The notes beneath the pieces are model-generated. The model was not told where the DNA came from, did no database searches, and was given only the letters and a program-made list of their open reading frames with translations. Shown here in pieces: positions 1 to 39,169 of a DNA stretch of 45,683 bases (position 1 is its first letter; each line of letters begins with the position of its first letter). This stretch comes from Candidatus Altarchaeota archaeon (GTDB lineage Archaea > Altiarchaeota > Altiarchaeia > IMC4 > SCGC-AAA252-I15). The DNA lies in assembly GCA_028712125.1 (NCBI GenBank), contig JAQTQS010000003.1:1-45683 (forward strand). Reading direction: 5' to 3'. The position numbers and the translations under genes were made by a program.

Positions 1-66
1 GCGGGCTGGAGTAGGTAATATCAATACGGAAATATGCTGGAAGAATGCAGGAGCGCCTGAAAATAA

Positions 67-681
67 TTACCTGTTGTCAAGTTCGGCCTTTGCCTTGTAC
101 AGCCTCGACAGGACTTTCTTCGGGTCATTGCCTATCAGGCATTCGACCGCGCTCTTCAGTCTTTTCGTCTCGCTGTTGTAGGCCTCCTCGCTGACGTCGC
201 CCCTGACCTGGAGGGTGTCGTTCCTCATGTTCTCGACCATCACAAGAAGCTTCTCCCTCTTTTCCCTTATCTGGCTGTATTTCTCGATGAAGCCGGTGTT
301 GAAGGCCTTTAGTATGTTGTCATGCGTCTGGCTGTTCCGAAACGACGGGAGGTATCTCAGGTTCTCCAGCTCGCAGGCCGCGATGTCCTGCGTGTAGGAG
401 TCGCCGTCTTCCAGCGTCTGTTCCGGGTTCTTCGGGAGGTATAGGAAACGCTCGTTGTCAATCCGCGTTATCGTCTTCGACTCAGCATCGAAGAGGTAGT
501 TGGTCTGATAGCCGTCCTTGACTCCGAAGACGTAGCTGAACGCCGTGTGCATGCCGAGCTGGAAGGCGATCCTGATGCCGTTCTCTACAAGCACGTCGGG
601 ATTCATGTACGCAAGCTCGGTCAGCGTCTTGCCCCGCACCAGTTCCATCAATGCGTACGCCCTGTGCTCAGCCATCTTCAA
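67..681 (-). CDS. C-terminal half of a divergent protein/lipid-kinase-like protein (split from the upstream ORF 678..1094)
   Basis: Hinge-like AYALMELVRGKTL, catalytic-loop/metal-like GVKDGYQTNYLFD...ITRIDNERF; TTG start overlaps the stop of the upstream ORF. Confidence 0.5.
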   Translation of the reverse strand: MKMAEHRAYALMELVRGKTLTELAYMNPDVLVENGIRIAFQLGMHTAFSYVFGVKDGYQTNYLFDAESKTITRIDNERFLYLPKNPEQTLEDGDSYTQDIAACELENLRYLPSFRNSQTHDNILKAFNTGFIEKYSQIREKREKLLVMVENMRNDTLQVRGDVSEEAYNSETKRLKSAVECLIGNDPKKVLSRLYKAKAELDNR

Positions 682-1094
682 CGCCTTTTACGCAGGCCGT
701 CGCCGCCGAGGCGAAACGCCCTAAGGCCCAGTTCCGCATACAGCGACGGCGCCATAAGCTCGTTCACTATCCCAGACTGGCCGGTCGGCGGCTTCTCGAC
801 TTTGAGAACCCGGTCGCCCGCGGTAGTCTTGATGAGCGCGACCGCCGGGTGCTCGAGCCTCCAGCCTTCGTCAAAGCCCTTGACCTGAAGCTGGGCATCA
901 ACCCGCCAAATCCGGTTCAGCGTCCTTTCGAGCGCCGGTACTGGGACGTCCCTGACGGCCGGGCCGCTCCTGAACGACGCCTGCTGGTCTGCGGGAATCA
1001 CGCCCGGCATCCTCCGGCTTAATGTCGAAATCCCGTCCTCGAATTCCGTCCGAAGGCGCCTGGCCTCGACGGAAGGTAACGTTGCGGTAACCAT
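678..1094 (-). CDS. N-terminal half of the kinase-like protein (GDRVLKVEKPP...NELMAPSLYAELGL)
   Basis: N-lobe-like Lys/Glu motifs; ends at TGA overlapping the start of the next ORF in the -1 frame. Confidence 0.45.
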   Translation of the reverse strand: MVTATLPSVEARRLRTEFEDGISTLSRRMPGVIPADQQASFRSGPAVRDVPVPALERTLNRIWRVDAQLQVKGFDEGWRLEHPAVALIKTTAGDRVLKVEKPPTGQSGIVNELMAPSLYAELGLRAFRLGGDGLRKRR

Positions 1095-1139
1095 CTCATT
1101 TAATATACGCCGCTACGGGAATAAATATACGGTGTCTTT

Positions 1140-1721
1140 ATGTACTCGAAGAGGGTGTTAGAGCATTTCCAATCCCCCAGAAACCAGGGCGAGCCCGCCG
1201 ACTGGGACGCGGTCGGCAAGGTCGGAAACCCCATATGCGGCGACGTCATGTACATCTACATCAAGGTAAAGGAGGATAAAATCGCAGACATAGGCTGGAA
1301 GACCATGGGCTGCGCCGCAGCAATAGCGACGACGTCGATGATAAGCGAACTAGCTAAAGGAAAAACATTAGATGAAGCCCTCGCCATAACAAGACAGGAC
1401 GTAGCCGACGCCCTGGAAGGACTGCCGCCCATAAAGATGCACTGCAGCAACCTCGCAGCAGACGGTCTGCACAAGGCCATCGAAAACTACCGGAAGGGCA
1501 GCCGTGAAGGCGAGTCCAAGGAGGAAGTGCTGGCGCAGTTCATCCGTATTCCAGGCGTGGACGAGAAAACCGCAAACATCCTCTGGGAGCAGGGAATCCT
1601 CAGCCTCGACGAACTGTTAAGGCTGCACCCTGAAGAACTCGCCCAGATTAAAGACCTAGACGAAAACAAGATAGCCAGCATACTGAAATACGCGGAAGAA
1701 CAGGCAAAGACATGCGGCTGA
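1140..1721 (+). CDS. IscU/NifU-N Fe-S scaffold protein with C-terminal helix-hairpin-helix domain
   Basis: Three conserved Cys contexts (GNPICGDVM, GCAAAIATTSM, MHCSNLAADGLHKAI); C-terminal IPGVDEKTANILWEQGILSLDELLRL...LDENKIASILKYAEE HhH-like. Confidence 0.88.
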   Translation: MYSKRVLEHFQSPRNQGEPADWDAVGKVGNPICGDVMYIYIKVKEDKIADIGWKTMGCAAAIATTSMISELAKGKTLDEALAITRQDVADALEGLPPIKMHCSNLAADGLHKAIENYRKGSREGESKEEVLAQFIRIPGVDEKTANILWEQGILSLDELLRLHPEELAQIKDLDENKIASILKYAEEQAKTCG

Positions 1722-1870
1722 ATGCTTCCAAGAACGCAGGCTAACAAGCATTCAAGATAGCAGGCAAGAAGGCAAGCTATTAGGCAAGCAAGCTAGAAGG
1801 CAAGCCAACAGCATACCATCGGGCAAGCAAGCTGACAACCTGTCAAAACCATAAAACCAGGCCTTCAAAC

Positions 1871-2086
1871 CTAAGGCTTCTTCTCGGCCAGCTTTATCGC
1901 ATTCGTCGGGCATGTCGCGACACAGGCCCCGCACTCGATGCAGGCTTCGGGATGCACGACATGGGATTTTGAGCCCTCCTTGGTGTCCTTCAGCTCGAAA
2001 ACCTTCGGGTCGGCAGGGCACACCGAAGCGCAAGCCCCGCAGCCGATACACTTTTTCTGGTCAACAATAGGAGGCATAACAAACAC
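1871..2086 (-). CDS. 2x[4Fe-4S] ferredoxin
   Basis: [15 protein letters not shown] and [17 protein letters not shown] motifs. Confidence 0.92.
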
Positions 2087-2152
2087 CTCACAAAATATGA
2101 GAATTAGAGCTTAAAAGACGAATATAGTCATCTAGGTGGAGGGTGGGCAACA

Positions 2153-2401
2153 TTAACTGGTCAACGCGCCTTCTATCGCTTCTTTGTCGAATCCTACGAT
2201 GATTTTTCCGTCTATGTCGAGGACTGGCACGCCCATTTGGCCGCTTTTGGTTATCATTTCTTTGGCTGCTTCGCGGTTTTTGCCGACGTCAAAGTCGGTG
2301 TAGGGTAGGTTTTTTGAGGCTAGGTATTCTTTGGCCATTTTGCAGTAGGGGCATGTCGGCGTCGAGTAGAGCAGTATTTTTTTGTCCATGTGTTTATTCA
2401 C
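2153..2401 (-). CDS. Glutaredoxin-like / NrdH-like protein
   Basis: STPTCPYCKMAKEYL active site; GVPVLDIDGKIIVGFD. Confidence 0.9.
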   Translation of the reverse strand: MNKHMDKKILLYSTPTCPYCKMAKEYLASKNLPYTDFDVGKNREAAKEMITKSGQMGVPVLDIDGKIIVGFDKEAIEGALTS

Positions 2402-2437
2402 CTGTGGATTTTATTTGATTATGTCTTTATAAGACAG

Positions 2438-2800
2438 TCATGCTGTTTCGATTTCTACGGGTTTTCCGGCCTGGTCGTAGGCTGCGATGTCGTTGATGGT
2501 CTGGTAGGGGCGGGCGATTATGAGGTTGAGCTTTCCTTTGGCGAAGAAGTTGATGTCCTGTTGGGAGGGCCGGTTGTTTGCGCTTGGATGGCTGTGGACC
2601 GAGCCGATGAGGGTGCTGTCGATGGGCATTAGGTATTCCTGGTGGCTTGCGAATCCATGGCCGTAGAGTGCTGCGGGCGGGACGATGATTTCGGTTATCA
2701 AATCGCCTTCGGCCCTTAGGAATCCGATGAATTCGCGGGGGTGGAGGCTTCGTGAGGCTCCTAGCATGAATTCAAGGGCTTCTTTTCTTATGCGGTGCAT
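2438..2800 (-). CDS. JAB/MPN (JAMM) metalloprotease-like protein
   Basis: HSHPSANNRPSQQD matches HxHx7SxxD. Confidence 0.85.
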   Translation of the reverse strand: MHRIRKEALEFMLGASRSLHPREFIGFLRAEGDLITEIIVPPAALYGHGFASHQEYLMPIDSTLIGSVHSHPSANNRPSQQDINFFAKGKLNLIIARPYQTINDIAAYDQAGKPVEIETA

Positions 2801-3224
2801 TTTTCTTCTTCGCTGCCTTGCGGCCGCAGTAGGGGCAGTATGTGCCGACGGCTGGCATGTCCTTGCCGCAGTTTTGGCAGCGTTTGACTTTGATTGATTT
2901 TATCTTCCGGACTTTGTTTGCCGCCCATCTGAAGGGCGTTAGTTGTGTCAACAGGAGGAGGAAGGGGGCGAGGATGGGCGTGAGGACTGGGGCTAGTAGG
3001 GGATATAGGAATGCGTATATCGTCGAGATTACCGGCAGTGCCAAAAACCAGGAGTAGAACAAGGTGAGGATGTATATGAGCAGCGCGAGGAGGCCGCTGA
3101 TGTATGCAAGGATGAGCGCGCCTGAGATGCCTGCGGCTGCGTCATGGCTTTGGTACCAATAGGCGATGAGGAAGAGCCCGATGATGAGTATTGCGGCCGA
3201 AAGGAGCTTGCGGTTTCTTTCCAT
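2772..3224 (-). CDS. Membrane protein with C-terminal zinc ribbon
   Basis: Several hydrophobic segments, then CQNCGKDMPAVGTYCPYCGRKAAKKK. Confidence 0.75.
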   Translation of the reverse strand: MERNRKLLSAAILIIGLFLIAYWYQSHDAAAGISGALILAYISGLLALLIYILTLFYSWFLALPVISTIYAFLYPLLAPVLTPILAPFLLLLTQLTPFRWAANKVRKIKSIKVKRCQNCGKDMPAVGTYCPYCGRKAAKKKNAPHKKRSP

Positions 3225-3230
3225 GTCCTT

Positions 3231-3929
3231 TTATTTTTTCGGGTTGACGTCTTCTATCAGCTTGATGAGGTCGCCCAGCGCGCGTATGACATAGTCCGGC
3301 GTCTCGGAATCGTCCTTCGGCTTTATCCTGGAATACCTAGGGGTCATGACGAGGACGGTCATCAGGCCGGCTTTGCGTGCCCCTGCGATGTCCTTGTCGA
3401 TGCGGTCGCCGACCATCATGCACTCCGAGGGCTTGAGGCCCGCTTTCGCGCATGCTTCATGGAAGAGCTGGGGGGTCTTTCCAGCAGCGTCTTCGGAGAT
3501 GACAACGACGTCGAAGAAGTGCTGGACGCCGAGGCGTATGAGCTTTTCCCACTGCTTGACCGGCACGCCCTCGGACACGATGCCGAGCTTCAAACCCATG
3601 CGGGTGAGGTCTATGAGCGTCGGCACTGTCTCGGCATACGGGGTTATGTAGGCGGATTTCGCGTTGGCGTAGGCGACGAGGCCCGCGCTTACGATTCTTG
3701 GGCTTATTTCAAGGCCGAGCGATTCCATCAGGCGGTCGTAGTGGAAGCGGTAGTTTGAGCCGTACTTTTTTACTATTTTCTTAAGGCGTTCAAGAGCGAC
3801 TTTCTCCTCGACGGGCAGGCCCGCTTCTATCATGGCTAGTACGACGTTCCTTCGCGCCGACTCGACCTGCATCGCGGTGTCGTACAGGGTGTTGTCAACG
3901 TCGAAAAAAACGGCTTTTATCCGGCTCAT
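3231..3929 (-). CDS. HAD-superfamily hydrolase
   Basis: FFDVDNTLYDT motif I, GIVSEG, MVGDRIDKDIAGARKAGL motif IV. Confidence 0.9.
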   Translation of the reverse strand: MSRIKAVFFDVDNTLYDTAMQVESARRNVVLAMIEAGLPVEEKVALERLKKIVKKYGSNYRFHYDRLMESLGLEISPRIVSAGLVAYANAKSAYITPYAETVPTLIDLTRMGLKLGIVSEGVPVKQWEKLIRLGVQHFFDVVVISEDAAGKTPQLFHEACAKAGLKPSECMMVGDRIDKDIAGARKAGLMTVLVMTPRYSRIKPKDDSETPDYVIRALGDLIKLIEDVNPKK

Positions 3930-3986
3930 TGTAATTAATACTACGATTGTTTAGGTATTTCAACGCTAATCTTAAAAAACATCAGA

Positions 3987-5279
3987 ATGGACGCGTCTGA
4001 CAGGGTAGTATTGAAGTGCATCGACTGCGGCAGGGAGTATCAGCCGATAGACGTCTATGAGTGCGAGTGCGGAGGCCTTTTGGACGCGCACATCAACCTT
4101 GACTGGGCGGGGTCTGTCGTCTCAAAGGCATTGTTCGACAAGCGCCTTGGCAGCAGGGAGAAGATTCTGAGAAGCGGCATCTGGCGCTACAAGGAGCTTG
4201 TGAACCCGATGGCCGATGATTTGTGCATAATAACGAGGCCCGAGGGCAATACCGGCCTTTACGAGAACAAGAGGCTTCTGGCTTACACCGGCCTTTCAAG
4301 CGTCATGCTAAAGCACGAGGGCGAGAACCCGACAGGCAGCTTCAAGGACAGGGGCATGAGCCCGGGAGTGAGCGAGGCCGTCAGGTTGCGGATGAAGGTC
4401 GTCGCCTGCGCATCCACCGGGAACACTTCGGCGTCAATGGCGGCTTATGCGAGCATGGCAGGCCTCAAGCCCGTCGTCTTCATACCCGAGGGCAAGATAG
4501 CCTACGGGAAGCTCGCCCAGGCATTGGCCTACGGCTCGAAAGTCATCCAGGTAAGGGGCAATTTCGACGACGCGATGAAGCTCGTCCGGGAGTCCTCGAG
4601 AAAGCTCGGCATGTACCTCCTTAATTCCGTCAACCCCTGGCGCATCGAAGGCCAGAAGACCATCATGATAGAGCTCATGCACCAGCTTTCATGGAATCAG
4701 CCGGACTGGGTTTGCGTTCCCGCAGGCAACCTCGGAAACACGTCGGCCTTCGGGAAGGCATTGGAGGAATTGAAAGCACTGGGTTTCATAGAAAAGATGC
4801 CGCGCATCGCGTCCATACAGGCCGATGGCGCGAACCCGTTCTACCTGCTTTGGAAGAAGAAGGCAGGGAGCTTGACGGCCGTCGAGCATCCGGACACTAT
4901 AGCGACCGCAATAAAGATAGGCAATCCTGTTTCATGGAAGAAGGCCCTGCGCTCAATTAACGCGACGAACGGCGTGGTCGAGCAGGTCTCGGACCAGGAA
5001 ATCATGGACGCGAAGGCCATCATCGACGGCTGCGGGATATGCTGCGAGCCTGCGTCGGCCGCATCGCTCGCAGGGGCCAGGAAGCTCGTGAAATCCGGCG
5101 TCATAAAGAGGGATGAGAGCGTCGTGTGCGTCATAACGGGAAACATACTAAAGGACCCCGAGGCGACTGTCAAATACCATCTGAGCGAGCTTGAGGGGAT
5201 AACGCCCAAGTACGCCAACGCGCCGACGGTCATCGATTCCAGACTGGAAGAGGTCGAGCGCGCCATCAACGCGCCGTAA
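3987..5279 (+). CDS. thrC: Threonine synthase
   Basis: N-terminal CIDCGREY...CECGG zinc-ribbon-like segment, PTGSFKDRG PLP-Lys motif, ACASTGNTSASMAAYAS. Confidence 0.93.
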   Translation: MDASDRVVLKCIDCGREYQPIDVYECECGGLLDAHINLDWAGSVVSKALFDKRLGSREKILRSGIWRYKELVNPMADDLCIITRPEGNTGLYENKRLLAYTGLSSVMLKHEGENPTGSFKDRGMSPGVSEAVRLRMKVVACASTGNTSASMAAYASMAGLKPVVFIPEGKIAYGKLAQALAYGSKVIQVRGNFDDAMKLVRESSRKLGMYLLNSVNPWRIEGQKTIMIELMHQLSWNQPDWVCVPAGNLGNTSAFGKALEELKALGFIEKMPRIASIQADGANPFYLLWKKKAGSLTAVEHPDTIATAIKIGNPVSWKKALRSINATNGVVEQVSDQEIMDAKAIIDGCGICCEPASAASLAGARKLVKSGVIKRDESVVCVITGNILKDPEATVKYHLSELEGITPKYANAPTVIDSRLEEVERAINAP

Positions 5280-5292
5280 GAGAAAAATTTTT

Positions 5293-5712: not shown

Positions 5713-5804
5713 AAGGCGAAAACCAAATTGCTAGCATGGACGCCCGCAAGCACATTCTAGGACTGCCAGACGGCACGGCGGATTTCGATAAAGGAGGCGC
5801 GTGA

Positions 5805-16993: not shown

Positions 16994-17320
16994 ATGGACC
17001 TAATTTTTCATTGGATGATTATCACACCCATAATGCTGTTTTTTGTATTTTGTGTAATCTTGGTTAGTAGTATTGCACGAAATACTTCAAAGGAAAGAAA
17101 TTTTACTAAAGGAGAATTTGAATCTATATTAAAGTCATATTTTCATATTATAATTGTAGTTGAAGTTTCTTTGCTATCTCTCTATCTGGCAGCTGAGGTA
17201 TATACAAATTTATGGAATAATTTTCTTATTTATCTGATAACACTTTTGATATTTCAAAGCATATTTTTATATGTTTATGGGAAAACAAGTATACATAGAA
17301 AACTAACCCATAAATCCTAA
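16994..17320 (+). CDS. Small AT-rich membrane protein, unknown
   Basis: 108-aa ORF with several hydrophobic helices; composition very different from its surroundings. Confidence 0.5.
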   Translation: MDLIFHWMIITPIMLFFVFCVILVSSIARNTSKERNFTKGEFESILKSYFHIIIVVEVSLLSLYLAAEVYTNLWNNFLIYLITLLIFQSIFLYVYGKTSIHRKLTHKS

Positions 17321-17382
17321 TATTTGAAGATTATCATCAAATATCTATTCAATTGTGGGATATGGAACTCTTGCGGTCATCG

Positions 17383-17393
17383 CTCCCCCCGCT
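17383..17393 (+). repeat. Direct repeat copy 2 (CTCCCCCCGCT); possible attR
   Basis: Exact 11-bp match to the tRNA-Cys 3' end. Confidence 0.5.
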
Positions 17394-17411
17394 TCCATCA
17401 TCAAGCCTGTA

Positions 17412-19025: not shown

Positions 19026-19145
19026 TATATCTATCAGATGATATCTATTGGGGCTTCAATTAATTAAAAAGCTTACTGACGCCAAACCCAGCTAACCTTT
19101 TTTTCCCTATTTGCGTTCTAGCCTAATAAAAAGAATGCCAGGTTT

Positions 19146-23567: not shown

Positions 23568-24728
23568 TTATTGCCTTGCGCCGTCTCTTTTTGCGGCGTA
23601 TACGTATAGGTCAATGCCGTCGGTCTTTGCCAGCATGTCGTCGACCGACTTTTGTTTCCTGCTGTTGCGCGGCTTGCCCATCAATATCATCGTGACCGCG
23701 TTCTGGACCGCGAAGCTTGTTATCTTGGCCGTGACGTCGTTGCTGTTCAGGCGGATGGCTCTCACCCCGAGGCTGCCCGCGGTATCGAACGCGTCCTTAA
23801 GCCATTTTTTCTCGTCTTCATTGAGAGACTTGTCATCTCCGGTCTCGACGTGGATGGCAATCAGTTCCGCTTCATGTTCCGCCGACAGCCGGTATGCGGA
23901 GCGCAGTATGTCCCCGGCGTTGGGGCTTGGACTGATGCATACAAGAAATTTTTCCGACGTTCTCCTCCCGGTTTCAATACTGCCGGCGCCGCCGCACCTT
24001 TCCATCTGCCTGCCTATGTGGAGTGCCATCTGCTGCATCGCGGCCTGGCGCAATGCGAGCAGGTTGCCTGGCCGGAAGAACTTTTGCACCGCTTCTGTTG
24101 CCATGTCCCGCGTGTAGACTTTTCCTTCCTTCAGCCTGTTCAGGAGCTGGTCGATGGGGAGGTCGACGAGTTTCACGTTTTCTGAGTTTAGGAATATGGA
24201 ATCGGGGACGTTTTCCTTCACGAGCGTTCCGGTAATGTTGAACACGACTTCTTTAAGGCTTTCGATGTGCTGGACGTTCAATGTCGTGTACACGTCTATT
24301 CCGGCGTTAAGGACGTCTTGCACGTCCTCGTACCGCTTGGCATTCTTCGTTCCCGGCGCGTTGGTGTGCGCCAGTTCGTCCATGAGCGCTATGCGCGGAT
24401 TCCTTTTTATTATAGCCTCGGTATCCGGTTCTGCTAGCGTCAGGCCGTGATATTCGATTTCGGCCGGTTTTATCGTTTCGAACTCGCTTGCAAGCGCTTT
24501 GGTTTCCGGACGCTTGTGCGGCTCGACGTAGCCTGCAACCACATCCAGCTTGTCGTCTTTCTTGCGGGATGCGGCATCGCAGAGCATTGCGTAGGTCTTC
24601 CCGACTCCGGGGGCGTAGCCGAAGAATATCGTCAAAGAGCCTGTTCCCTTTGTTTCATCCTTCTGGCCGGCGCTAATCCTCTTCAAAAGCTCCTCCGGGC
24701 TGGGCCGTATGTACTCGTCTTCTGCCAT
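23568..24728 (-). CDS. KdpD N-terminal domain + Usp domain, lacking the histidine kinase
   Basis: FFGYAPGVGKTYAMLCDA, VAGYVEPHKRPET, ALMDELAHTNAPG, KRYEDVQDVLNAGIDVYTTLNVQHIESL; ends after the Usp-like region at 386 aa. Confidence 0.92.
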   Translation of the reverse strand: MAEDEYIRPSPEELLKRISAGQKDETKGTGSLTIFFGYAPGVGKTYAMLCDAASRKKDDKLDVVAGYVEPHKRPETKALASEFETIKPAEIEYHGLTLAEPDTEAIIKRNPRIALMDELAHTNAPGTKNAKRYEDVQDVLNAGIDVYTTLNVQHIESLKEVVFNITGTLVKENVPDSIFLNSENVKLVDLPIDQLLNRLKEGKVYTRDMATEAVQKFFRPGNLLALRQAAMQQMALHIGRQMERCGGAGSIETGRRTSEKFLVCISPSPNAGDILRSAYRLSAEHEAELIAIHVETGDDKSLNEDEKKWLKDAFDTAGSLGVRAIRLNSNDVTAKITSFAVQNAVTMILMGKPRNSRKQKSVDDMLAKTDGIDLYVYAAKRDGARQ

Positions 24729-24730
24729 TT

Positions 24731-25345
24731 TTATTGCGCGTCTTCTAGCGCGTCTAGCGCCTTGTTTAGCATTAGGATATTTACCCTGTTTGTGCCTATA
24801 ATGCCTAGTATCGGTTTTTCTGCCTGCTTGTCTATGAGTTCGTTTATCTCTTCAGTTTCTATTCCGCGCTCTTTGGCGATATTTGGCGCCTGCAGGTAGG
24901 CTGATTCGACGCTTATGTGCGGGTCGAGCCCGCTTGCCGAGGCCGTCACGAGGTCGGATGGGATTACGCTCGCATTGCTTGCGTTCTTCCAGTATGACGC
25001 CCTGTCCGAGAACGCTTCTACAAGGCCCTTGTTTGTGGGGCCCATGTTCGAGCCGCCTGATGCCATCGGGTTGTACGGGCGGCCGGCTGTTGCGGAAGGC
25101 CGTGGCTGGAAGTATTTCGGGCCGGTGAAGTATTGTCCTATGAGCTCCGAGCCTATTGTATTGTTGTTCTTGTCTTTTATCAGGCTGCCTTCGGCCTGCT
25201 GCGGGAATAATTGCTGGGCGGCCGCGTATACGGCGAGGGGGTAGGCTATCCCGGTGAGGAGCCACATGGCGGTGAAGAATGCGGCTGCCCGTTTTAACCG
25301 TATGTTAACGCCTTTTGTTTCGGCCGTTTCTCCAGCATCTTTCAT
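24731..25345 (-). CDS. kdpC: K+-transporting ATPase C subunit
   Basis: GSLI, GQYFTGPKYFQPRPSATAGRPYNPMASGGSNMGPTN; ASASGLDPHISVESAYLQAPNIAKERG. Confidence 0.95.
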   Translation of the reverse strand: MKDAGETAETKGVNIRLKRAAAFFTAMWLLTGIAYPLAVYAAAQQLFPQQAEGSLIKDKNNNTIGSELIGQYFTGPKYFQPRPSATAGRPYNPMASGGSNMGPTNKGLVEAFSDRASYWKNASNASVIPSDLVTASASGLDPHISVESAYLQAPNIAKERGIETEEINELIDKQAEKPILGIIGTNRVNILMLNKALDALEDAQ

Positions 25346-27381
25346 AACAGTCCTCCTATTATGAGGTCTATGATTTTTATCCCTGCGAATGGGGCTATTA
25401 TGCCTCCGAGGCCGTATATCAGCATGTTCCTCCGGAATATCTGTTCGACGGACATCGGCTCGTATTTCACTCCCTTGAGCGCGAGAGGTATCATCAATGG
25501 TATGATTATTGCGTTGAATATCACGGCTGAGAGTATCGCGCTTTCCGGCGTTGACAGGCGCAGTATGTTAAAGGCTTCGAGTTCAGGGTATATTCCGTAC
25601 AGCGCCGCCGGGACTATCGCGAAATATTTTGCCAGGTCGTTTGCGATGCTGAATGTGGTGAGCGCCCCCCTTGTCATGAGTATCTCCCTTCCGACCTTCA
25701 CTATTTCTATAAGCTTGGCCGGGTGGTTGTCGAGGTCTATCATGTTGGCGGCTTCCTTTGCGACCTGCGTGCCCTCGCTCATCGCCACCGCAACGTCGGC
25801 TTGCGCAAGAGCGGGTGCGTCGTTGGTTCCGTCGCCGGTCATTGCAACCATGAAGCCTTGCTTTTGCTCGTCGCGTATTATCCTCAGCTTGTCTTCCGGC
25901 TTTGCCTGCGCCATATAGTGCTCGACGCCGGCCTCCTTTGCTATATGGGCCGCCGTCAGCGGGTTGTCGCCGGTTATGATTACTATCTTTATGCCCATCC
26001 TGGCGACCTCTGCAAGGCGCTCCTTGATGTTCGGCTTCAGCACGTCTTTTAGGTGTATCACGCCCAGGATTTTGTCGTCGACCTGCACCAGGAGGGGCGT
26101 GCCGCCGCTTTCTGCGATTTTGTCCACCTCCTCGTTTACGCCTTCGGGCGTCATGCCTCCGAGCTTGGCCGCGTTCTCGATTATTGAATCCGCCGCGCCC
26201 TTCCTGTACGAGCGGCCGTCGTAGTCCACGCCGCTTATGCGCGTGTGGGGGGTGAATGGTATGACCGTCATTTTTTGCTCGTAGGCGTTGAACTGTATTC
26301 CGTATTTGTCCCTTGCGAGGGCCAAGATGCTCTTGCCTTCGGGCGTATCGTCTCCGACCGACGTTATCAGGGATGACAACGCCAGCTCTTTTTTAGTGAG
26401 TCCGCTGAAGGGTATGAAATCAACGGCCTGCCTGTTGCCGTATGTTATGGTACCGGTCTTGTCGAGGAGTATCGTGCTTACGTCACCGGCCGCTTCGACG
26501 GCCTTGCCTGAGAGTACGACCACTTTTTTGTTGAATAGGCGGTCCATGCCTGCTATCCCTATGGCCGGCAGCAGGGCGGCGATGGTGGTCGGCGCAAGGC
26601 AGACGAACAATGAGATGAGGACTGCGAGTTCTACGGCTGAGCCGCGTCCTATCGTGTTTGCGCTGTAGTATGACAATGCCCAGAGGTTTGCGACCACGAA
26701 GAGGAATATCCCGGTCAGCCATAGCAGGAGGGTGTCCAATGCTATCTCGTTCGGGGTCTTCGGCCTCTTGGCGGCGTCTATCATGTTAACCATCCTGTCG
26801 ACGAAGGTCTCGCCGGAATTTACGGTTATTTTCACCATGCACGTGTTTGCTATGACTTTGGTTCCCGCGACGACGCCGCAGCGCTCCCCGCCGGATTCCC
26901 TTACGACGGGGGCGGACTCCCCTGTGACCGCGGACTCGTCCATGAGGACCGAGCCTGCGAGCACCTCGCCGTCTGAGGGGACGATGTCGCCTATGGCCAA
27001 AAGCACTATGTCGCCGCGCTTGAGGTCTGATGCGCTCACTATGTCGTACGCCGCGTGGAAGTCGGGCGCATCAAGCCTCTTGGCAGTCACGTCCTCCCGC
27101 CCCTTCTTCAACTCGTCGGTCCTGGCCTTCCCCCTAAGCTCGGCGAATGACTCGGCGAAGGTGCTGAACAGGACGGTAAGCCAGAGCCACACTGTTATTC
27201 CCAGTATGAACCTTGCAGGCCTGCCTGAGAGCATGGCGTCGAGGAGGCCGAGCGTGGTTATAACGCTCCCTATCTCGACCGAGAACATGACCGGGTTCCT
27301 CCATAGCCTCCAAGGGCTCAGCCTCTTGAACGCGTCTTTGCATGCGGCAGCCAAAATTTCCGGGTTGAAAATGCCTGGCAT
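25342..27381 (-). CDS. kdpB: K+-transporting ATPase B subunit (start refined to MPGIFNPEIL)
   Basis: ILLDKTGTITYGNRQA, MDESAVTGESAPV, MTGDGTNDAPALAQADVAVAMSEGTQ. Confidence 0.96.
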   Translation of the reverse strand: MPGIFNPEILAAACKDAFKRLSPWRLWRNPVMFSVEIGSVITTLGLLDAMLSGRPARFILGITVWLWLTVLFSTFAESFAELRGKARTDELKKGREDVTAKRLDAPDFHAAYDIVSASDLKRGDIVLLAIGDIVPSDGEVLAGSVLMDESAVTGESAPVVRESGGERCGVVAGTKVIANTCMVKITVNSGETFVDRMVNMIDAAKRPKTPNEIALDTLLLWLTGIFLFVVANLWALSYYSANTIGRGSAVELAVLISLFVCLAPTTIAALLPAIGIAGMDRLFNKKVVVLSGKAVEAAGDVSTILLDKTGTITYGNRQAVDFIPFSGLTKKELALSSLITSVGDDTPEGKSILALARDKYGIQFNAYEQKMTVIPFTPHTRISGVDYDGRSYRKGAADSIIENAAKLGGMTPEGVNEEVDKIAESGGTPLLVQVDDKILGVIHLKDVLKPNIKERLAEVARMGIKIVIITGDNPLTAAHIAKEAGVEHYMAQAKPEDKLRIIRDEQKQGFMVAMTGDGTNDAPALAQADVAVAMSEGTQVAKEAANMIDLDNHPAKLIEIVKVGREILMTRGALTTFSIANDLAKYFAIVPAALYGIYPELEAFNILRLSTPESAILSAVIFNAIIIPLMIPLALKGVKYEPMSVEQIFRRNMLIYGLGGIIAPFAGIKIIDLIIGGLL

Positions 27382-29111
27382 CAGAAGACACCTCCGGTAA
27401 TCATCAGCAGGTGTTCGACTATCGGGCCCAGGGCGAGGGCCGGCAGGAATGATATCGTGTCGACCAGCACGATGACCATGATGAGCCATATTATGAACGT
27501 CATGGTGCTTGTCCGAAGGACGTCCGGGGACTGGTAGACTTTTTTCGCCGCGAGCGAGCCGGCCAGCGCTAGCGCCGCTATCGCTGGTATGAACCTTCCG
27601 GCAAGCATGGCTATGGCCCCCATCAGGTTGTAAAACACCGTATTGGCATTAAGGCCTCCGAAGGCGCTTCCGTTGTTGTTCGCCATTGAGGCGAACGCGT
27701 ACAGTATCTCGCTTACGCCGTGCGGCCCCATGTTGTATATCGAGGATGCGCCTTCAGGCAGCAGTATCGCAATGGCTGAGAACAATAGCACGAGCATGGG
27801 CGGTATGAGCACGATGATGACCGAGCATCTCATGTCGATTGCTTCTATCTTCTTTCCGAGGTATTCCGGCGTCCTGCCGACCATTAGGCCGGCGACGAAG
27901 ACCGCGATTATAACGTAGGGGAGCATCGTGTATAATCCGGAGCCTATGCCGCCGGGGCAGACTTCCCCGAGCATGATGAGGGCCATCGGCATCATCCCCC
28001 CGAGGGGTGTCATCGAGTCGTGCATTGAGTTGACTGACCCTGTCGAGGTCCCGGTCGTGGCTGCGGCGTATAGCACGCTCCCGCCTATTCCGAATCTGGT
28101 TTCCTTGCCTTCCAGGTAGTCGCCGCTTATGCCCGCATTTTCCAGCAGTGGATTGCCTTTCAGCTCGAAGTAATAGCCGAATGCGTATGCGGCAGCAAGG
28201 AATAGCATCATCACGGCGAAAATTGCCCATCCCTGCCTCGTATCCTTTGCCATGCGCCCGAACGTGTAGGTCAACGAGAAGGGTATTGCGAGTATCATGA
28301 GTATCTCAAGGATGTTTGTGAGCGGCGTGGGGTTTTCGAACGGGTGGGCTGCATTGGCGCCGAAAAATCCGCCGCCGTTGTTGCCAAGCTCCTTAATCGC
28401 CTCCTGGGACGCCACGGGCCCCATCGGTATCTCCTGCGTTGTGACGTTTCTCCCGTCGGACGCGACGTACGGCTCCATCAGATTTGAGTTCACGTAGGGA
28501 CTGAAGTTTTGTATCACGCCCTGGGATGCGAGCAATAGCGCGCCGGCAAAGGCGGCAGGCAATAGTAGGTATACCGTGCCGCGGGCCATGTCGGCCCAGA
28601 AGTTGCCGAGCGTGCGGCTGGACTGCCTTGTTATGCCGCGTATTAGCGCGATGGCTATGCAAAGCCCGGTCGCGGCCGAAAGGAAGTTCTGGACCGCGAG
28701 GCCGGCCATTTGGGTGAAGTAGCTTGCCTGCGATTCGCCGGAGTAGGCCTGCCAGTTGGTGTTTGTCACAAAGCTTACGGCGGTGTTTACCGCGAGGTCC
28801 CATCTGAACCCGCCGTAGTTCTGGGGGTTTAGCGGGAGGTATTGCTGGAACAGGAGGATTGCAAGGAGCGCGGCTATTCCGATGATGTTGAAGAGCATCA
28901 TTGAGACTGCGTAATCCTTCCAGTCCATCTCCTCGCTGGGGTTGATGCCGCAGGCTTCGTATGCCGACTCCTCCAGAATCCGGAGGAACTTGCACCGCCC
29001 TTCAAAGACCCGCGCTATGTACAGGCCGAGCGGCTTGGCTATTAGTAGGACTGCCAGCATGCACAGGCCGAATACGGCGGTGTCGGCGGCGACGTTTGCC
29101 ATATACATCAC
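27381..29111 (-). CDS. kdpA: K+-transporting ATPase A subunit
   Basis: FVTNTNWQAYSGES, NNGGGFFGANAAHPFENP, GTSTGSVNSMHDSMTPLGGM, ANNNGSAFGGL. Confidence 0.96.
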   Translation of the reverse strand: MMYMANVAADTAVFGLCMLAVLLIAKPLGLYIARVFEGRCKFLRILEESAYEACGINPSEEMDWKDYAVSMMLFNIIGIAALLAILLFQQYLPLNPQNYGGFRWDLAVNTAVSFVTNTNWQAYSGESQASYFTQMAGLAVQNFLSAATGLCIAIALIRGITRQSSRTLGNFWADMARGTVYLLLPAAFAGALLLASQGVIQNFSPYVNSNLMEPYVASDGRNVTTQEIPMGPVASQEAIKELGNNGGGFFGANAAHPFENPTPLTNILEILMILAIPFSLTYTFGRMAKDTRQGWAIFAVMMLFLAAAYAFGYYFELKGNPLLENAGISGDYLEGKETRFGIGGSVLYAAATTGTSTGSVNSMHDSMTPLGGMMPMALIMLGEVCPGGIGSGLYTMLPYVIIAVFVAGLMVGRTPEYLGKKIEAIDMRCSVIIVLIPPMLVLLFSAIAILLPEGASSIYNMGPHGVSEILYAFASMANNNGSAFGGLNANTVFYNLMGAIAMLAGRFIPAIAALALAGSLAAKKVYQSPDVLRTSTMTFIIWLIMVIVLVDTISFLPALALGPIVEHLLMITGGVF

Positions 29112-32139: not shown

Positions 32140-32149
32140 ATATAATATA
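32140..32149 (+). promoter_or_regulatory. TATA-like element (ATATAATATA) upstream of the giant-protein pair
   Basis: Centred about 27 bp upstream of the GTG at 32172, consistent with a leaderless archaeal transcript. Confidence 0.45.
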
Positions 32150-32171: not shown

Positions 32172-35100
32172 GTGTCTAAATTAAATCCGCCCGGCCGCCG
32201 TCATGGCAAGCATGTGGAAGTGGTCATCAACAAGGACGGCCTTACAGCTCCCGTTCCTAATGGCATCGGCCAAAAAGAAGCGGCTAAAGAGGTGTTCTCG
32301 GATGTAATATTGAACGCCTCGTCCATCAGGGAGAAATTCGTCTTCCAGCGGCTGATACATGAAGCGAAGTCGGCAGGCTTGGACAGCGCCGCAGGGCGCA
32401 GGACGGTGGAGGAACTGCTCCGAGGCAGGAAGCCGATGGGTGTCGCATCCCCTGCTGAAGTGGACGGCAAGGGTGAGGTCGAGGCGGTTATAAGGGACGG
32501 AAAGCCGCATACCGTAGTGACCACCGCGAACCCTCAAGAGTTCGTTGATGACAAGAGAACCATCGAGATTGAGCGTGGCAAAAAAGATACCGACTATACA
32601 AAAATAAGTCGGATACTCAGGAAGATATACTACGGCGAGCCATACCCGCCAAGTCCGGAAGTCAGGCTGCTCGGCCCGAAGGAAGACACTGCCGGCAGGG
32701 TTGTCATCAGGCTGAAAGATTCTACAATATCTGTTGAGGGTCTTCCCTCAGGATTGGGCGCGGTCATGCCATTGGCCGGCGCGTCAGCAGTCGGCGCCGA
32801 GTCCAAAGACCGTGTCTCTGTTGTAAGGTTCAAGCCTGGCGTAGCCAGGGAATTTCTTAATGAAGACGAGCTGATGTTCTTCACTGGATGGGCTAGAAAC
32901 ATGTTGGAGGCGAGGGGCCTTATCCCTGAGAAAGGAGCCAAGAAGCCTGAGGGGAAGGCCCCCACGCGGAAGCCGGGGAAAAGCCAGGAACAGCTTCGGC
33001 CTGCTGGTCTTGACGAGCTTATTGGTCTTATTAATGAAATCGAGGCGAATCCCATGCTCCGTAGGGATAAGGAGGCTAAGGGGCTGACACAGGTGGAGTT
33101 GGGCGTCGTCGACAGGCACATTGGCCTGCTTGACGAGGACAAGAGGCTCCAGTGCTGGGTTGCTCTGGACTACATGTCGCCTTCCGGCAGGGAGAACGTC
33201 GTGAAACGGCTTGCTAGAATCGGCATCTCAAACATGCCAGCAGCCGATAAGAAGGAGGCTGTTGTGGACGTTTTCGGGAGGTCGATCCGCTTCGACGCAC
33301 AGAGGGAGATGCTAAGCTGGATTGATGACGGGCTTGTCATGACAATTGACCAGAAGCCGGAATTAAGGCAGATGAACAAGGGCTTGAAGACAATTGGGCT
33401 GCTGGGGGCGGGCGAGAAGGCGGAATCTGTCGAAGAGGTCTCCTCAGGCAAGAACAGGAGATGGTCTATTAGGACGAACAGAAACAAGGCATGGCTTCTC
33501 GCATATGACAAGGTCCGGGGTAGGGTCGCGTTTTATGAGGGGGCCGAAGGACCGAAAAACCTGCGTGCGACCGTGCTTGCTGACATTGATGCGCATAACG
33601 CCTCGACGTTTCACCTCTATGACGAGAAGATGCCTGCCGAGTTCATGAGGAAGTACTGCGCGGTCGGCGGCCTTTTCTGGAGCAAGGTCGGTCTGCCAAA
33701 GGAGCAGCTTGAAAAGGCAAAGGAAATCGTCGACAAAGTGGGGGGCGACCACAAGATAACTTTCCTTAAGGTTGTCAGCAGAATGTCTTTGAGGTCGAAT
33801 GACGACCGTGCGGGACTCATCGAAAACATTCTGGAGAAGGCAAGGGCGTATGAGAAAGACCCGGCAAAGATGTGTGTCGAGCTTACCGGCTCCCTACACA
33901 TCAACCTGGCGAGGCTCATGATAAACTCAACGGTGTTCGAGATGGACTGCATACGGCAGGCCGAGAAACCCGCCTTCATAGACGGCATCTTCAGGCTAGT
34001 GGAGGACACGAGCGAGGGATTAGACAAACGTAGGAACAGGTTCGCGAACGCCTACGCCATCTGCGACAGGGCTGACGCAGTGGAAGTGCTGCACTCCACA
34101 CCGACCTACATTCTGGCGAAAGAGACGCTCGCGGCCATGACCGCAAAGAAGCCAACGGCGGATTTCCTAAACTTCATGTTCCTGACTTCGATAAACGCAG
34201 ACTTCATGAGGATGTCATTCGAAGCGCTAGCCAAGGCGGACGACGTATCGGACCATGCGCAATACCTCCATGAAAAGTCCGCCCAGACCATCAGCGTGCT
34301 TGACGACATAAGGACCGACGCCAAGTTCAGGGAATACTACGAGCCGTTAAAAAGGGGTGACGCTCATATCCCAAACGTCGATGACGCCGACATGGACGGG
34401 CTTAGAGGGGCGGTCAGGCTGTTCGATGCCGCGGCGTCGGACACGGACTATATAGCGAAATTCACGGGACCCCTTGCCAGGATGGCTAAAGAGAGCCCTG
34501 AGGCGGCCATTGAATATGCTGCAAGGTACACGCCAAGGACCGCCGCCGGGTGGGACGGCACCGTCGTGCAATACGAGGGCCTTGCCGAATCCGCAGGCAA
34601 AGTCGCCAGAATCGCTGATGACGACGCCTACAGGAGTCTTTTCATCCAGAGGCTCGAACGCGTCAAGAAAATCCGCGACTTCGACAACACGAATGTAAAA
34701 GGGATAAAGGACAGGTCCCTTGCCGAGGCGATCTCGCTTACCATGGCCAATGGACCCAATCAGATGGAATTCCTGACCCGCTCCGGCGTCCTTGAGGCTG
34801 CCGAATACTGCGCAGACTTGAAGCCGGACAGGGATTACCTCCTAAGGGAGTTCCTAGCGTGCCTGGGGGATAATCCGCAGCTGAACGTCGCAAAGGCCTA
34901 CACCATCCTCTTCAGGGTGGACGATATGCAGTCTATGAACGATGCGAGAGCCTTCCTTCGGAGGAGTGTGCTTAACGACGACGACTTGAAATCGATAAGC
35001 GCTGAGCAGTGGAAGGAAATGGAAGGCGAGCCAAAAAAGATACTGGCTGCCTTCAGAGGTCTTGAAACGAAAAAGAGGGAGTACCAGAACGCGCTAGTCG

Positions 35101-35756
35101 AACTGCCCGCCGGAATGAAATCCGAGTATGAGAAGCTCGCAGAGAGAATTCCAAAACTGAAGGACGCAGAATCGGCGAGAAAGCTTGCGGCGATTACATC
35201 AGGCCACACGCCAGAAGTGCAGGCAGCGGTCCTCGCTCTCATAGGCGATGTCTCGACGACAGCCGACCCGGCCGAAACGCAGACAGCAATGGACAGAGCA
35301 GCCGGCATGCTGGACTCCAAGGCACTTGTTAGAAGGCTTGGAGAAATGCTGTATGCGCCCTACTCCGCAGGAAGGTTCACCGCCCTCTTGAGGGGTAAGG
35401 TTGACAGGTTCAGGATGAGGGAGCCGGAGGCGGTCGTAGAGTCAGCATTCAAGGACAGAACCTTCCAGCTCGAATACGCCATCGAACAAGGGACGGGAGA
35501 CTGGTCTTCCCACGAGGGAGACCGGGGCAGAACGATACAGATGATAGCCGAAGCACCCGAGGGCTACCGGCCTTATGTCATGGCAATCGGGGCCGGCAGG
35601 CTCCAGAGGGAAATAACCTCAAATCCAAACTACCTGAATGACTTGTACATGTATCTCTATCAGAATCCTGACGTCACCGCCCTTGCAGGACCATTATGCG
35701 TGCGGGCGGAGAACGACGGCAGGCTTGAAGTGCTCAGGGGCGCAAAAATAACATGA
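32172..35756 (+). CDS. Giant predicted alpha-helical protein, 1194 aa, unknown function
   Basis: Long uninterrupted ORF with GTG start; no motif recognised; ATGA overlap with the next gene. Confidence 0.85.
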   Translation: MSKLNPPGRRHGKHVEVVINKDGLTAPVPNGIGQKEAAKEVFSDVILNASSIREKFVFQRLIHEAKSAGLDSAAGRRTVEELLRGRKPMGVASPAEVDGKGEVEAVIRDGKPHTVVTTANPQEFVDDKRTIEIERGKKDTDYTKISRILRKIYYGEPYPPSPEVRLLGPKEDTAGRVVIRLKDSTISVEGLPSGLGAVMPLAGASAVGAESKDRVSVVRFKPGVAREFLNEDELMFFTGWARNMLEARGLIPEKGAKKPEGKAPTRKPGKSQEQLRPAGLDELIGLINEIEANPMLRRDKEAKGLTQVELGVVDRHIGLLDEDKRLQCWVALDYMSPSGRENVVKRLARIGISNMPAADKKEAVVDVFGRSIRFDAQREMLSWIDDGLVMTIDQKPELRQMNKGLKTIGLLGAGEKAESVEEVSSGKNRRWSIRTNRNKAWLLAYDKVRGRVAFYEGAEGPKNLRATVLADIDAHNASTFHLYDEKMPAEFMRKYCAVGGLFWSKVGLPKEQLEKAKEIVDKVGGDHKITFLKVVSRMSLRSNDDRAGLIENILEKARAYEKDPAKMCVELTGSLHINLARLMINSTVFEMDCIRQAEKPAFIDGIFRLVEDTSEGLDKRRNRFANAYAICDRADAVEVLHSTPTYILAKETLAAMTAKKPTADFLNFMFLTSINADFMRMSFEALAKADDVSDHAQYLHEKSAQTISVLDDIRTDAKFREYYEPLKRGDAHIPNVDDADMDGLRGAVRLFDAAASDTDYIAKFTGPLARMAKESPEAAIEYAARYTPRTAAGWDGTVVQYEGLAESAGKVARIADDDAYRSLFIQRLERVKKIRDFDNTNVKGIKDRSLAEAISLTMANGPNQMEFLTRSGVLEAAEYCADLKPDRDYLLREFLACLGDNPQLNVAKAYTILFRVDDMQSMNDARAFLRRSVLNDDDLKSISAEQWKEMEGEPKKILAAFRGLETKKREYQNALVELPAGMKSEYEKLAERIPKLKDAESARKLAAITSGHTPEVQAAVLALIGDVSTTADPAETQTAMDRAAGMLDSKALVRRLGEMLYAPYSAGRFTALLRGKVDRFRMREPEAVVESAFKDRTFQLEYAIEQGTGDWSSHEGDRGRTIQMIAEAPEGYRPYVMAIGAGRLQREITSNPNYLNDLYMYLYQNPDVTALAGPLCVRAENDGRLEVLRGAKIT

Positions 35757-38700
35757 CGCAGGTTTACATTATCGAAGGCGGTAGGATGAGGCAGGTGGAG
35801 CCTCAGAAGGTGGCGTACGCGGAAAGCGCGCGAGTCAGCCTTCCGCTCCCGAAGAGCATCGAGCTTTCATCTGGAAAAAAGCTTCAGCCGGAAGCCGTCC
35901 TTAGGCTCGAGGCGGCAAGGCAAAAAGACCTCAAGCTTGCGGTACTCGCGCAGGACATGAGCGTAAAACACGCGGAAGCGTACGGATTCCTGAAGTCGGA
36001 GCTCGCGGGAGGCCGGCCCGAAACGGCGGAACTGATGCTCAGGATTTACGAACGTGACCCGGGCGAGATAGACAGGGCTGCGATAGCATTGCACCCGGAA
36101 TTGAAGCCCGACCACGCGAAAATGAGCCAGCTCGCCGGAAAACTAAGGCGCGGAGAACCTGTCGAAGACATGGCCAAGGAACTTGACGACATGATACCAA
36201 TTCCAGAGCGGCCGAAGATAGTGCCCCGTCCAGAGCCGAAGACCGAACGGCCTCCAATCCCAAGGCCGGCGGATAGGCCTCCAATACCAGAACCGCATCG
36301 AAGGCCGATAGCAAGCGCCGTAGTGCCGGGGACGCCGCCGTCAGAAGCAAAGCCTTCGGTTTCCCTCACCGAAGCCCAGTACATTGACCAAAATCACATA
36401 GAAGAGAATATAAGGCGTGACTTCCCGCCGGCTTTGCGTGATTCGGCCATAGGGGCTTACAAGGCCTTTTGGGGGGGTGGCGGCAGGCTGACTGTAGTCC
36501 AGTCAAGAAGCCTTTTCCACATTCTTGGGGATTTAAGAGGCAGGTATGAGAAACCAGAGTGGATGCTCCTCTACTTCCAGCACGCGCTGTCAGAACCGAA
36601 GGACGCAGAAGGCAGGATAGGCATGATGACAGACTCGACCCGGTTCGGAAACGCAACAGACCTTATGGGCAGCGTTCTCATGTTCAACAGACTCGGCCGC
36701 GACGTCATCAAATCCGAAGCCGGGGAAGCCGCATTCAGGGCGATATTCCTGTCGGGTGTGCATGAATACGAGTTCATGACCGGTAATGATACGGCAAGCC
36801 TGGCCAGGGCGGTGCGCTCAGTTTCCAGGAACATGGCGGGCACACCATTTGACGTGGAAGAAGGGAGGAGGGAATATAGGAATGTATACGACAACCTGCT
36901 GTTCCTAACCCACCTAGCCAGCACGCCGGACTGCAGGGAAATTGGAATGGATGATGCAAGGATCACCCGTGGGAACAGGGCATTCGACAACCTATTGGAA
37001 TTCGCGATAGACAACGGCATGGAAGAGACTTCCGCCCTAAAGAGAAGTCTTTTTGCACGCATCTTCATACGCGACCGAAGCGCGCTAGAGCTCACAACAA
37101 GCGAGGATGCGAGGAACGCCACCATATGGCTCACAGGCAAGCGGATGGCAGACATTGCAAGACTTGAGCCGGAATTTTCAGAAAAATATCTTCGGCTCAT
37201 ACTAGGCCGGCCTGAAATCCTGCCTAACATAGAGCGCACTGGCGGGACGGCTAACGCAGGGTTTGCCGCGATACCAAGCGCAATTAACTCAATCATGGCC
37301 ATACAGGACCTGCCGGACCGAAGGGGAACGGCCGGGAGGATTCTGGACAGGATGCTCGACGACGAGGAAACGGCCCTGAGGCTTTCCGAGCCCGGAAGGC
37401 TGCATCTGGCCCTGGAGCTTGTCAACACCTGGGCGTATTATGTCAAACCTGCGGACCTGCTTGACGTTAATTTCCTCATGATGGCTGATGCGGCGCAACA
37501 GAGCAGCCTGGAGGTGGTGAAACGCCTTAAGGACGACCCGCATCTTGTAGAAAGGAGAAAATCACCGGATGCGGGGCCGGCGGAATCTAAATCAGTCACG
37601 GGAGGTAAACCGGAGGAGCACGAGCCCAGGGCCAGCCTGACGACGTACGTGCACGACATCAGGATTCCGGCAGACCTGAGCTATCCAGGCGAGGACCCGA
37701 TGTTCAGCACCCTCAACGCCCAGTACCTGCTCAGGGCCGAACTCGGCAGGATTAACAGGCTCCCGGCCCACCAGAGGAGGATTGTGAACTACCTTAGCAA
37801 CCTCAGTTCCCCTGACGAAGACTTCCAGATTGGCAGGGACAACCTTTTAGACAAGCTTAGGGGCCATAGGAATCTCGCACGGCTTTACCTTGGCGGTGAA
37901 GGAATGCAAAACCTTGACAGGGACCTTGCAGCCCTAGGTTCCGGAACCGACAAGGTTGTGGACTACCCCAAAGCCGGCGGTGCGGTCAGGCTGGCCGACG
38001 CCGTCAGAAAAACCGGCGGGACCGTGGAACTCCAGCCGCAAGACGAAGCCGAGGCGACAGCGCAACTCGTCGGAATCCTGGACGAAACACGATACGGCCC
38101 GAGGAGGGAGAAGGAGTTCAAGACCGACTTGGCCATTGTAATCGCCCTTGCGCGCTCGCAAAACTATGTCGCAGAAAGGAAAACGCTGGTCAGGGCCGTC
38201 CATACGGGCCTTGCGGGGGAGAACGTTTCTGAGGACAGGATTAGCGCGAGGATAAGCCACCTCATTACCGACAGGGACATCATACGAAGGACCGACCCGA
38301 CCGGGACGACGGTGATGATGAGCCCGAACGTCATATCCCAAGTTGACAGGATGAGGCTTCCGGAAGTTTACAGGACGACTTACATGGACGCGACAGATCC
38401 CCTGAGGAGGATGCGCCGGATGTACGAGATGACCATAAGCGACGACCGGCCGCCGAACAGGCACTTCTCCCCGGACTTGACGGCGGGGCGGGTTGACGAC
38501 ATATACCGGGCTGTCGCGACTCTGACTACGGGCGGCGATGCAATGGAGGAGCCCAGGATGGCGGATGCCATAGAGAGGAGGCTTGCCGTAGTAATGACGC
38601 TGTCGAACATGGGCCTGAGCCTCGAATACGGGGCGAAAAGGCAAAGCATAATAGAAGAGACAGGCATGGGCGAAAGCACTGTGCAGGGACTGCTCACGGA

Positions 38701-39169
38701 CATGGTAAGATCTGAGATGGTGGAGAGGGTCTCCCAGGGGTATTACAGGATAAGCCCGGATTACAGGCACACCCAGCAGCCTGACCTTGCAGGACAGACG
38801 CACGCGCCATCCCGGCCGGGAGCGATGCACGAGAACATAAACGAGGCGAAAGTTCAATTGGACATTGCCGCAAGCGGCAGGCTCAAGACAGCGACAAGAA
38901 AGGCGCAGGCAACGGCTATAATGGCATACCTGTCAGATTCCCACATGACCCTACCGCACTGCGCAAGGGCCAACGACGTGCTGGAGCTGAACAGGACATT
39001 CGGCGGGAAGAACACCGAAGGCCAGAACAACGGGGACTTGGAGGCGCTGATGGCGGAGACGAGCGCTAAATACGGCCCTGTGGTAGAAAGGCTGAAGATA
39101 GCCGGCAGGGACGTCTTCTACAGGATAACCGACAGGTACGCCGGCGGAGCCGCGGGCGAAACACAATAG
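35753..39169 (+). CDS. Giant protein, 1138 aa, with Pro-rich linker and two C-terminal winged-helix-like segments
   Basis: PRPEPKTERPPIPRPADRPPIPEPHRRPI linker; wHTH-like RQSIIEETGMGESTVQGLLTDMVRSEMVERVSQGYYRIS; ATG overlaps the preceding stop. Confidence 0.87.
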   Translation: MTQVYIIEGGRMRQVEPQKVAYAESARVSLPLPKSIELSSGKKLQPEAVLRLEAARQKDLKLAVLAQDMSVKHAEAYGFLKSELAGGRPETAELMLRIYERDPGEIDRAAIALHPELKPDHAKMSQLAGKLRRGEPVEDMAKELDDMIPIPERPKIVPRPEPKTERPPIPRPADRPPIPEPHRRPIASAVVPGTPPSEAKPSVSLTEAQYIDQNHIEENIRRDFPPALRDSAIGAYKAFWGGGGRLTVVQSRSLFHILGDLRGRYEKPEWMLLYFQHALSEPKDAEGRIGMMTDSTRFGNATDLMGSVLMFNRLGRDVIKSEAGEAAFRAIFLSGVHEYEFMTGNDTASLARAVRSVSRNMAGTPFDVEEGRREYRNVYDNLLFLTHLASTPDCREIGMDDARITRGNRAFDNLLEFAIDNGMEETSALKRSLFARIFIRDRSALELTTSEDARNATIWLTGKRMADIARLEPEFSEKYLRLILGRPEILPNIERTGGTANAGFAAIPSAINSIMAIQDLPDRRGTAGRILDRMLDDEETALRLSEPGRLHLALELVNTWAYYVKPADLLDVNFLMMADAAQQSSLEVVKRLKDDPHLVERRKSPDAGPAESKSVTGGKPEEHEPRASLTTYVHDIRIPADLSYPGEDPMFSTLNAQYLLRAELGRINRLPAHQRRIVNYLSNLSSPDEDFQIGRDNLLDKLRGHRNLARLYLGGEGMQNLDRDLAALGSGTDKVVDYPKAGGAVRLADAVRKTGGTVELQPQDEAEATAQLVGILDETRYGPRREKEFKTDLAIVIALARSQNYVAERKTLVRAVHTGLAGENVSEDRISARISHLITDRDIIRRTDPTGTTVMMSPNVISQVDRMRLPEVYRTTYMDATDPLRRMRRMYEMTISDDRPPNRHFSPDLTAGRVDDIYRAVATLTTGGDAMEEPRMADAIERRLAVVMTLSNMGLSLEYGAKRQSIIEETGMGESTVQGLLTDMVRSEMVERVSQGYYRISPDYRHTQQPDLAGQTHAPSRPGAMHENINEAKVQLDIAASGRLKTATRKAQATAIMAYLSDSHMTLPHCARANDVLELNRTFGGKNTEGQNNGDLEALMAETSAKYGPVVERLKIAGRDVFYRITDRYAGGAAGETQ

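Follow-up and report, generated by a model that had tools for sequence, protein, structure and literature searches.

A conserved pair of large overlapping genes in one Altiarchaeota family, and its possible role as a two-subunit scaffold

Two adjoining genes that together fill seven kilobases, and whose products recall no characterised protein, raise the question of whether they form a functional unit and, if so, of what kind. Such a pair lies in a 45,683-nucleotide stretch of DNA from a Candidatus Altarchaeota archaeon (hereafter the window), which is contig C18 of a 1.41-Mb, 97-contig Altiarchaeota MAG. The original prediction, made from the letters of the sequence, saw here two translationally coupled, scaffold-like proteins and the strongest candidate in the stretch for an undescribed system. 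In this report, we examine the coding reality of the two genes, their conservation and limits, and the features of their products. The two proteins make up a family not described before, and their operon arrangement is conserved; their function can be proposed with graded confidence.

The gene pair and its counterpart in a relative

The two genes and the elements around their starts are the following.

32141..32149, + strand: TATA-like box (TATAATATA block), centred ~27 nt 5' of the GTG of gene 1
32172..35756, + strand: gene of protein 1 (GTG start; 1194 aa, 133 kDa; predicted cytoplasmic, mostly helical, no family)
35753..35756, + strand: ATGA start/stop overlap of genes 1 and 2, read from the sequence (8 nt in the counterpart described below)
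35753..39169, + strand: gene of protein 2 (ATG start; 1138 aa, 127 kDa; predicted cytoplasmic, no family)

Both open reading frames and the ATGA that they share were confirmed in the sequence. With pI values of 7.0 (protein 1) and 6.2 (protein 2), the products range from neutral to slightly acidic, and neither contains transmembrane-like segments. A pattern scan for Walker A, HExxH and zinc-finger motifs returned nothing in either protein, and no family exceeded its cut-off, in agreement with the earlier reading that no enzymatic motif is recognisable. The TATA-like box announced ~27 bp ahead of the GTG is indeed present as the TATAATATA block and, on inspection, no Shine-Dalgarno (SD) motif precedes that GTG, a configuration that fits a leaderless transcript. 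Such a start would be ordinary in this genome, because its upstream regions are richest in A/T at -25 to -28, and only ~23% of 188 such regions have an SD-like motif. Leaderless genes are described as abundant in archaea (PMC3160421). Judging from sequence, the transcript of the two genes is probably leaderless, and their products are probably co-expressed.

The nearest relative that carries the pair is JAPKXP01 ('Candidatus Altiarchaeota archaeon isolate LacPavin_0920_SED5_MAG_52_7', here G003), a member of the same family. On the minus strand of its locus L005, the first gene (3328..4641) and the second (3..3335) overlap by 8 nt: 437 codons from the C-terminal end of a protein 1 homolog lead directly into a full-length protein 2 homolog, with the order kept. 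The N-terminal part of that protein 1 homolog, 571 codons long, is found on a separate short contig. The two fragments align to residues 1-722 and 737-1192 of protein 1 and thus almost abut; they therefore probably represent a single gene split by assembly. Since G003 carries homologs of both, side by side, the two open reading frames of the window are genes and not chance frames. Divergence is considerable: identity reaches 34% over 1,100 aa for protein 2 and 26-30% for the protein 1 fragments, which places the pair in the fast tail of orthologs between the two genomes (G000 and G003), whose median identity is 56% for 48 reciprocal best hits drawn from samples of both. The flanks, moreover, have changed: a P-type ATPase and kdp genes accompany the pair in the window, while the gene beside the N-terminal fragment in G003 was read by eye as a YfcE-like phosphoesterase. 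The genome-context comparison proposed at the outset thus returned an adjacent, same-order, overlapping pair within different surroundings.

It is conceivable that the two genes are simply fast-evolving large orphans, adjacent without any special partnership. The genome's further soluble orphans of 640-1156 aa (at least seven, see below) and the place of the pair in the fast tail would suit this explanation, but adjacency and overlap have been kept in both genomes at ~30% identity while the neighbours changed, and we regard mere adjacency as improbable. That the genes form a translationally overlapping unit conserved in G003 is, by contrast, well supported by the sequence comparison. Because order, adjacency and overlap persist despite the changed flanks, we favour a reading in which the two products act as one complex.

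Limits of the unit and its distribution

Two further genes follow the pair on the same strand: a 160-aa membrane protein ORF starts 67 nt past it and a 345-aa lipoprotein ORF 619 nt past it. The original prediction had mentioned both; the ORFs exist, but their membership in the unit is not supported. Relatives of the lipoprotein occur in four other Altiarchaeota genomes (G006, G009, G020 and G007), all without the pair, and in the three cases that were fetched (G006, G009 and G020) no other gene of the window lies alongside; conversely, G003 has the pair and lacks the lipoprotein. Neither the P-type ATPase upstream nor the transglutaminase downstream is associated with the pair elsewhere, and no conserved neighbourhood of the ATPase, transglutaminase and lipoprotein was found in relatives. 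As these genes are unlinked to the pair elsewhere, the unit consists of the two genes alone, probably without the membrane protein and the lipoprotein.

Two other loci of the window deserve mention in their own right. The kdpABC genes (24731-29111) adjoin an ORF (23568-24728, - strand) that encodes a KdpD-type N-terminal sensor and a USP domain without the histidine kinase part. At 5805-7559 (+ strand), an acetolactate-synthase-like TPP enzyme combines an N-terminal rubredoxin domain (PF00301, E 2e-10) with three TPP-enzyme domains.

Rather than being commonly unlinked, which would have spoken against a partnership, both partners turned up together in profile searches, in 2 of 29 Altiarchaeota genomes, the window genome and G003, with no further copy of either protein in this set. 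The two genomes represent two genera of one Altiarchaeota family, and a same-genus MAG is without the pair; at MAG completeness of 70-90%, some of these absences are explicable by incompleteness. A profile search with protein 2 found no homologs in 397 archaeal genomes, nor in plasmids; the genome itself holds no paralogs of the pair, and a literature search returned nothing on either protein. A match to Arthrobacter phage Wollypog (E 4e-3) was rejected, as the matched frame runs antisense to annotated genes. Taken with the homolog in G003, these null searches indicate a genuine, linked pair that evolves fast and is confined, so far, to one family.

Such a patchy occurrence, with absence from a same-genus MAG and neighbours that differ between the two genomes, is what accessory or mobile cargo, for instance defence or virus-derived genes, might display. 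PADLOC returned no core-protein family and hence no membership in a known anti-phage defence system; its sole line was a weak AbiEi-type winged-helix match (E 0.005, 14 bits, one segment), which would lean the same way. On the other hand, PHROGs and PADLOC yielded no family of weight, plasmids gave no match, the one weak phage match looks antisense, and incompleteness accounts for some absences; no integrase was seen among the scanned ORFs and no tRNA gene, and GC and GC3 are ordinary. We consider a mobile origin decidedly unlikely. On the reading that we prefer, the pair would specify a lineage-restricted, co-translated, probably stoichiometric cytoplasmic complex, of which the genetic coupling is the one visible basis.

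Folds of the two proteins and the winged helices of protein 2

With both proteins, searches of Pfam, NCBIfam, PHROGs and PADLOC stayed below cut-off, so that the claim of no characterised family for either stands. No solved structure matched either of them above threshold, by sequence or by fold; the AF2 alignments consisted of two rows, the models are poor (mean pLDDT 43 for protein 1 and 39 for protein 2), and a Foldseek comparison of both with the PDB gave no match at E<=1e-3. That proteins 1 and 2 are homologous was rejected: the hhalign probability was 0.1%, a short N-terminal motif (..KIS.I...I..GEP) had P 0.11, and local profile scores did not exceed those of reversed sequences. The similarity of protein 1 to a 1175-aa protein of another genome (G002), which has a PEP-utiliser domain, was not significant (E 0.13-0.19). 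The regions that could be delimited within the two proteins are listed here.

35001..35663, + strand: run of short helix pairs, protein 1 residues ~944-1164 (AF2; its best-predicted part)
35888..36196, + strand: conserved N-terminal helical domain, protein 2 residues ~46-148 (identity 43% at 101-150; pLDDT ~60)
36200..36352, + strand: proline-rich linker, protein 2 residues ~150-200 (from sequence; pLDDT <50)
36371..37537, + strand: helical middle, protein 2 residues ~207-595 (AF2 helices, low confidence)
38108..38323, + strand: predicted winged helix (H-H-s-H-H-s-s), protein 2 residues ~786-857 (AF2, pLDDT ~67-79)
38570..38761, + strand: putative winged helix, protein 2 residues ~940-1003 (resembles DUF7343/TrmB and the archaeal MCM C-terminal winged helix)

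Protein 1 had been described as wholly alpha-helical. Its model is indeed mostly helix, with a run of short helices at residues ~960-1110 (pLDDT ~72-81), but strands appear at low confidence near 130-220 and 1175-1189, and 'mostly' is the better word. For protein 2, the anticipated proline-rich linker and helical middle are both visible, and the middle may harbour an internal duplication (294-378 and 400-482; suggestive, P 0.0014 before correction). Two winged-helix-like segments in the C-terminal part are likewise supported, each by a different route: sequence points to ~940-1003, and AF2 supports 786-857, the sole confidently modelled stretch of the protein, and not 940-1003. Two extra winged helices suspected by eye, at ~668-750 and 1047-1126 (pairwise P 0.01-0.02), are not claimed. 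As for the nucleic-acid-binding-type ends foreseen for the pair, winged-helix segments were seen in protein 2, but no such end was seen in protein 1.

Several sub-threshold matches converge on the same part of protein 2. The weak Pfam matches at 960-997 are archaeal helix-turn-helix domains, all below cut-off (DUF7343, 18.3 bits for a cut-off of 27.6), and TrmB matches the G003 homolog at 15 bits, below its curated cut-off. With the protein 2 profile, other archaeal genomes yielded only winged-helix matches, one to an MCM-like helicase at its C-terminus (E 7e-4 per genome), the other to a TrmB-like regulator of small size (E 0.0015). From the PDB came a single, weak match, again an MCM winged helix (2m45, E 0.055). 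Residues 851-1000 are also the most conserved part of protein 2 relative to G003 (39-44% identity). Since the profile, PDB and Pfam matches are all of MCM, TrmB or helix-turn-helix type, and AF2 adds a winged helix, docking on nucleic acid is favoured; the case for DNA is weakened in that every family match is below cut-off, the winged-helix region is not markedly basic, and just two sequences are available.

Winged helices also make protein-protein contacts, as in the PCI, cullin and ESCRT-II families. The pair might accordingly be a structural or adaptor complex that works away from DNA, with its winged helices serving as protein-protein modules. A helical, solenoid-like protein carrying a winged helix and a near-neutral C-terminal half would suit such a complex, and importin, catenin and cullin solenoids top the Foldseek list of protein 2, at TM values (~0.1-0.2) that are not meaningful. 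The nearest winged-helix matches, however, are DNA-associated (the MCM C-terminus, the TrmB-like regulator and DUF7343); we hold an adaptor off DNA to be possible but on the unlikely side.

The reading that we prefer, tentatively and at somewhat less than even confidence, is a two-subunit scaffold docked on DNA or RNA through the winged helices of protein 2. The two-gene operon would yield one, probably leaderless, transcript and from it two large cytoplasmic proteins, which translational coupling would keep in near-equal amounts. They would join in one complex, with protein 1 as a long helical scaffold and protein 2 as a helical subunit in which a proline-rich stretch would act as a flexible hinge and two or more winged helices would be arrayed towards the C-terminus; through this array the complex would dock on nucleic acid, DNA being the likeliest kind. 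Protein 2 may contact nucleic acid, or partner proteins, by its winged helices, and a regulatory or chromosome-organising role of the pair can be envisaged.

Large orphan proteins of the lineage and comparison with known systems

Is the pair exceptional in its genome? Long ORFs listed from 1.18 Mb of that genome include at least seven more soluble proteins of 640-1156 aa without a Pfam family, none of them a paralog of the pair. One is a 951-aa protein (L061:5705-8560, contig C36), carried by 7 of the family's 8 genomes and absent from the other Altiarchaeota genomes, and thus more widely spread than the pair. In six relatives (homologs L164, L162, L156, L165, L166 and L167), it adjoins aspartate-semialdehyde dehydrogenase and/or aminotransferase genes, as read by eye. 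Further orphans of 641-1156 aa, without Pfam family, are these.

L045:6943-10410 and 4074-6743
L098:15113-17095 and 17249-19774
L057:1824-3857
L102:1532-3457

In the relative G002, three consecutive same-strand ORFs of 2108, 854 and 1270 codons (G002:C12:274642-287382, L153-L154) encode, for the second, a protein with TPRs and, for the third, one without Pfam family. Large soluble orphans are therefore a feature of the family, and the pair is one example and not a singular system: of the original prediction, the undescribed nature stands, but the exceptional status does not. The family encodes many large soluble proteins (~600-1200 aa, up to ~2100 in G002), mostly without Pfam family, and the chromosomal position of some is conserved; this suggests that part of the cell biology of these archaea has yet to be explored. 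As an undescribed family with a conserved operon arrangement, the pair offers a clean target for structure work. A more specific proposal, that it is a new archaeal DNA-associated scaffold of two subunits without ATPase, confined to one Altiarchaeota family and one of a larger class of giant soluble orphans that serve a cellular process, is speculative and has a low probability.

Other large proteins were noted during this survey. The 1175-aa protein of G002 (G002:C12:302339-305866; L155:2339-5866) has a divergent PEP-utiliser C-terminal domain, the rest being unmatched. Tandem, Cdc48-like AAA ATPases are encoded at L115:2649-7452 and L098:12088-14031, and a third copy elsewhere in the genome has the same unusual N-terminal region. 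In another Altiarchaeota genome, a whole contig (L168, G018:C33:1-10200) is one open frame of 3400 codons.

SMC-kleisin/ScpB-type and Wadjet/MukBEF systems also consist of large helical proteins co-encoded with winged-helix proteins. Unlike them, the pair has no P-loop or Walker A and no Pfam SMC match, and entries of these systems appear among its Foldseek lines at non-significant values (E 0.1-3.7). PCI proteins and cullins are alike in plan only, a long helical part followed by a winged helix; there is no Pfam or sequence match, and Foldseek TM is ~0.1-0.2 on a low-confidence model. The archaeal MCM C-terminus (2m45), TrmB (PF01978) and DUF7343 (PF24034) align with protein 2 over one putative winged helix of ~60 residues. 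The remaining ~95% of that protein and the whole of protein 1 are unrelated to them, and neither an AAA+ helicase nor a sugar-binding part is present.
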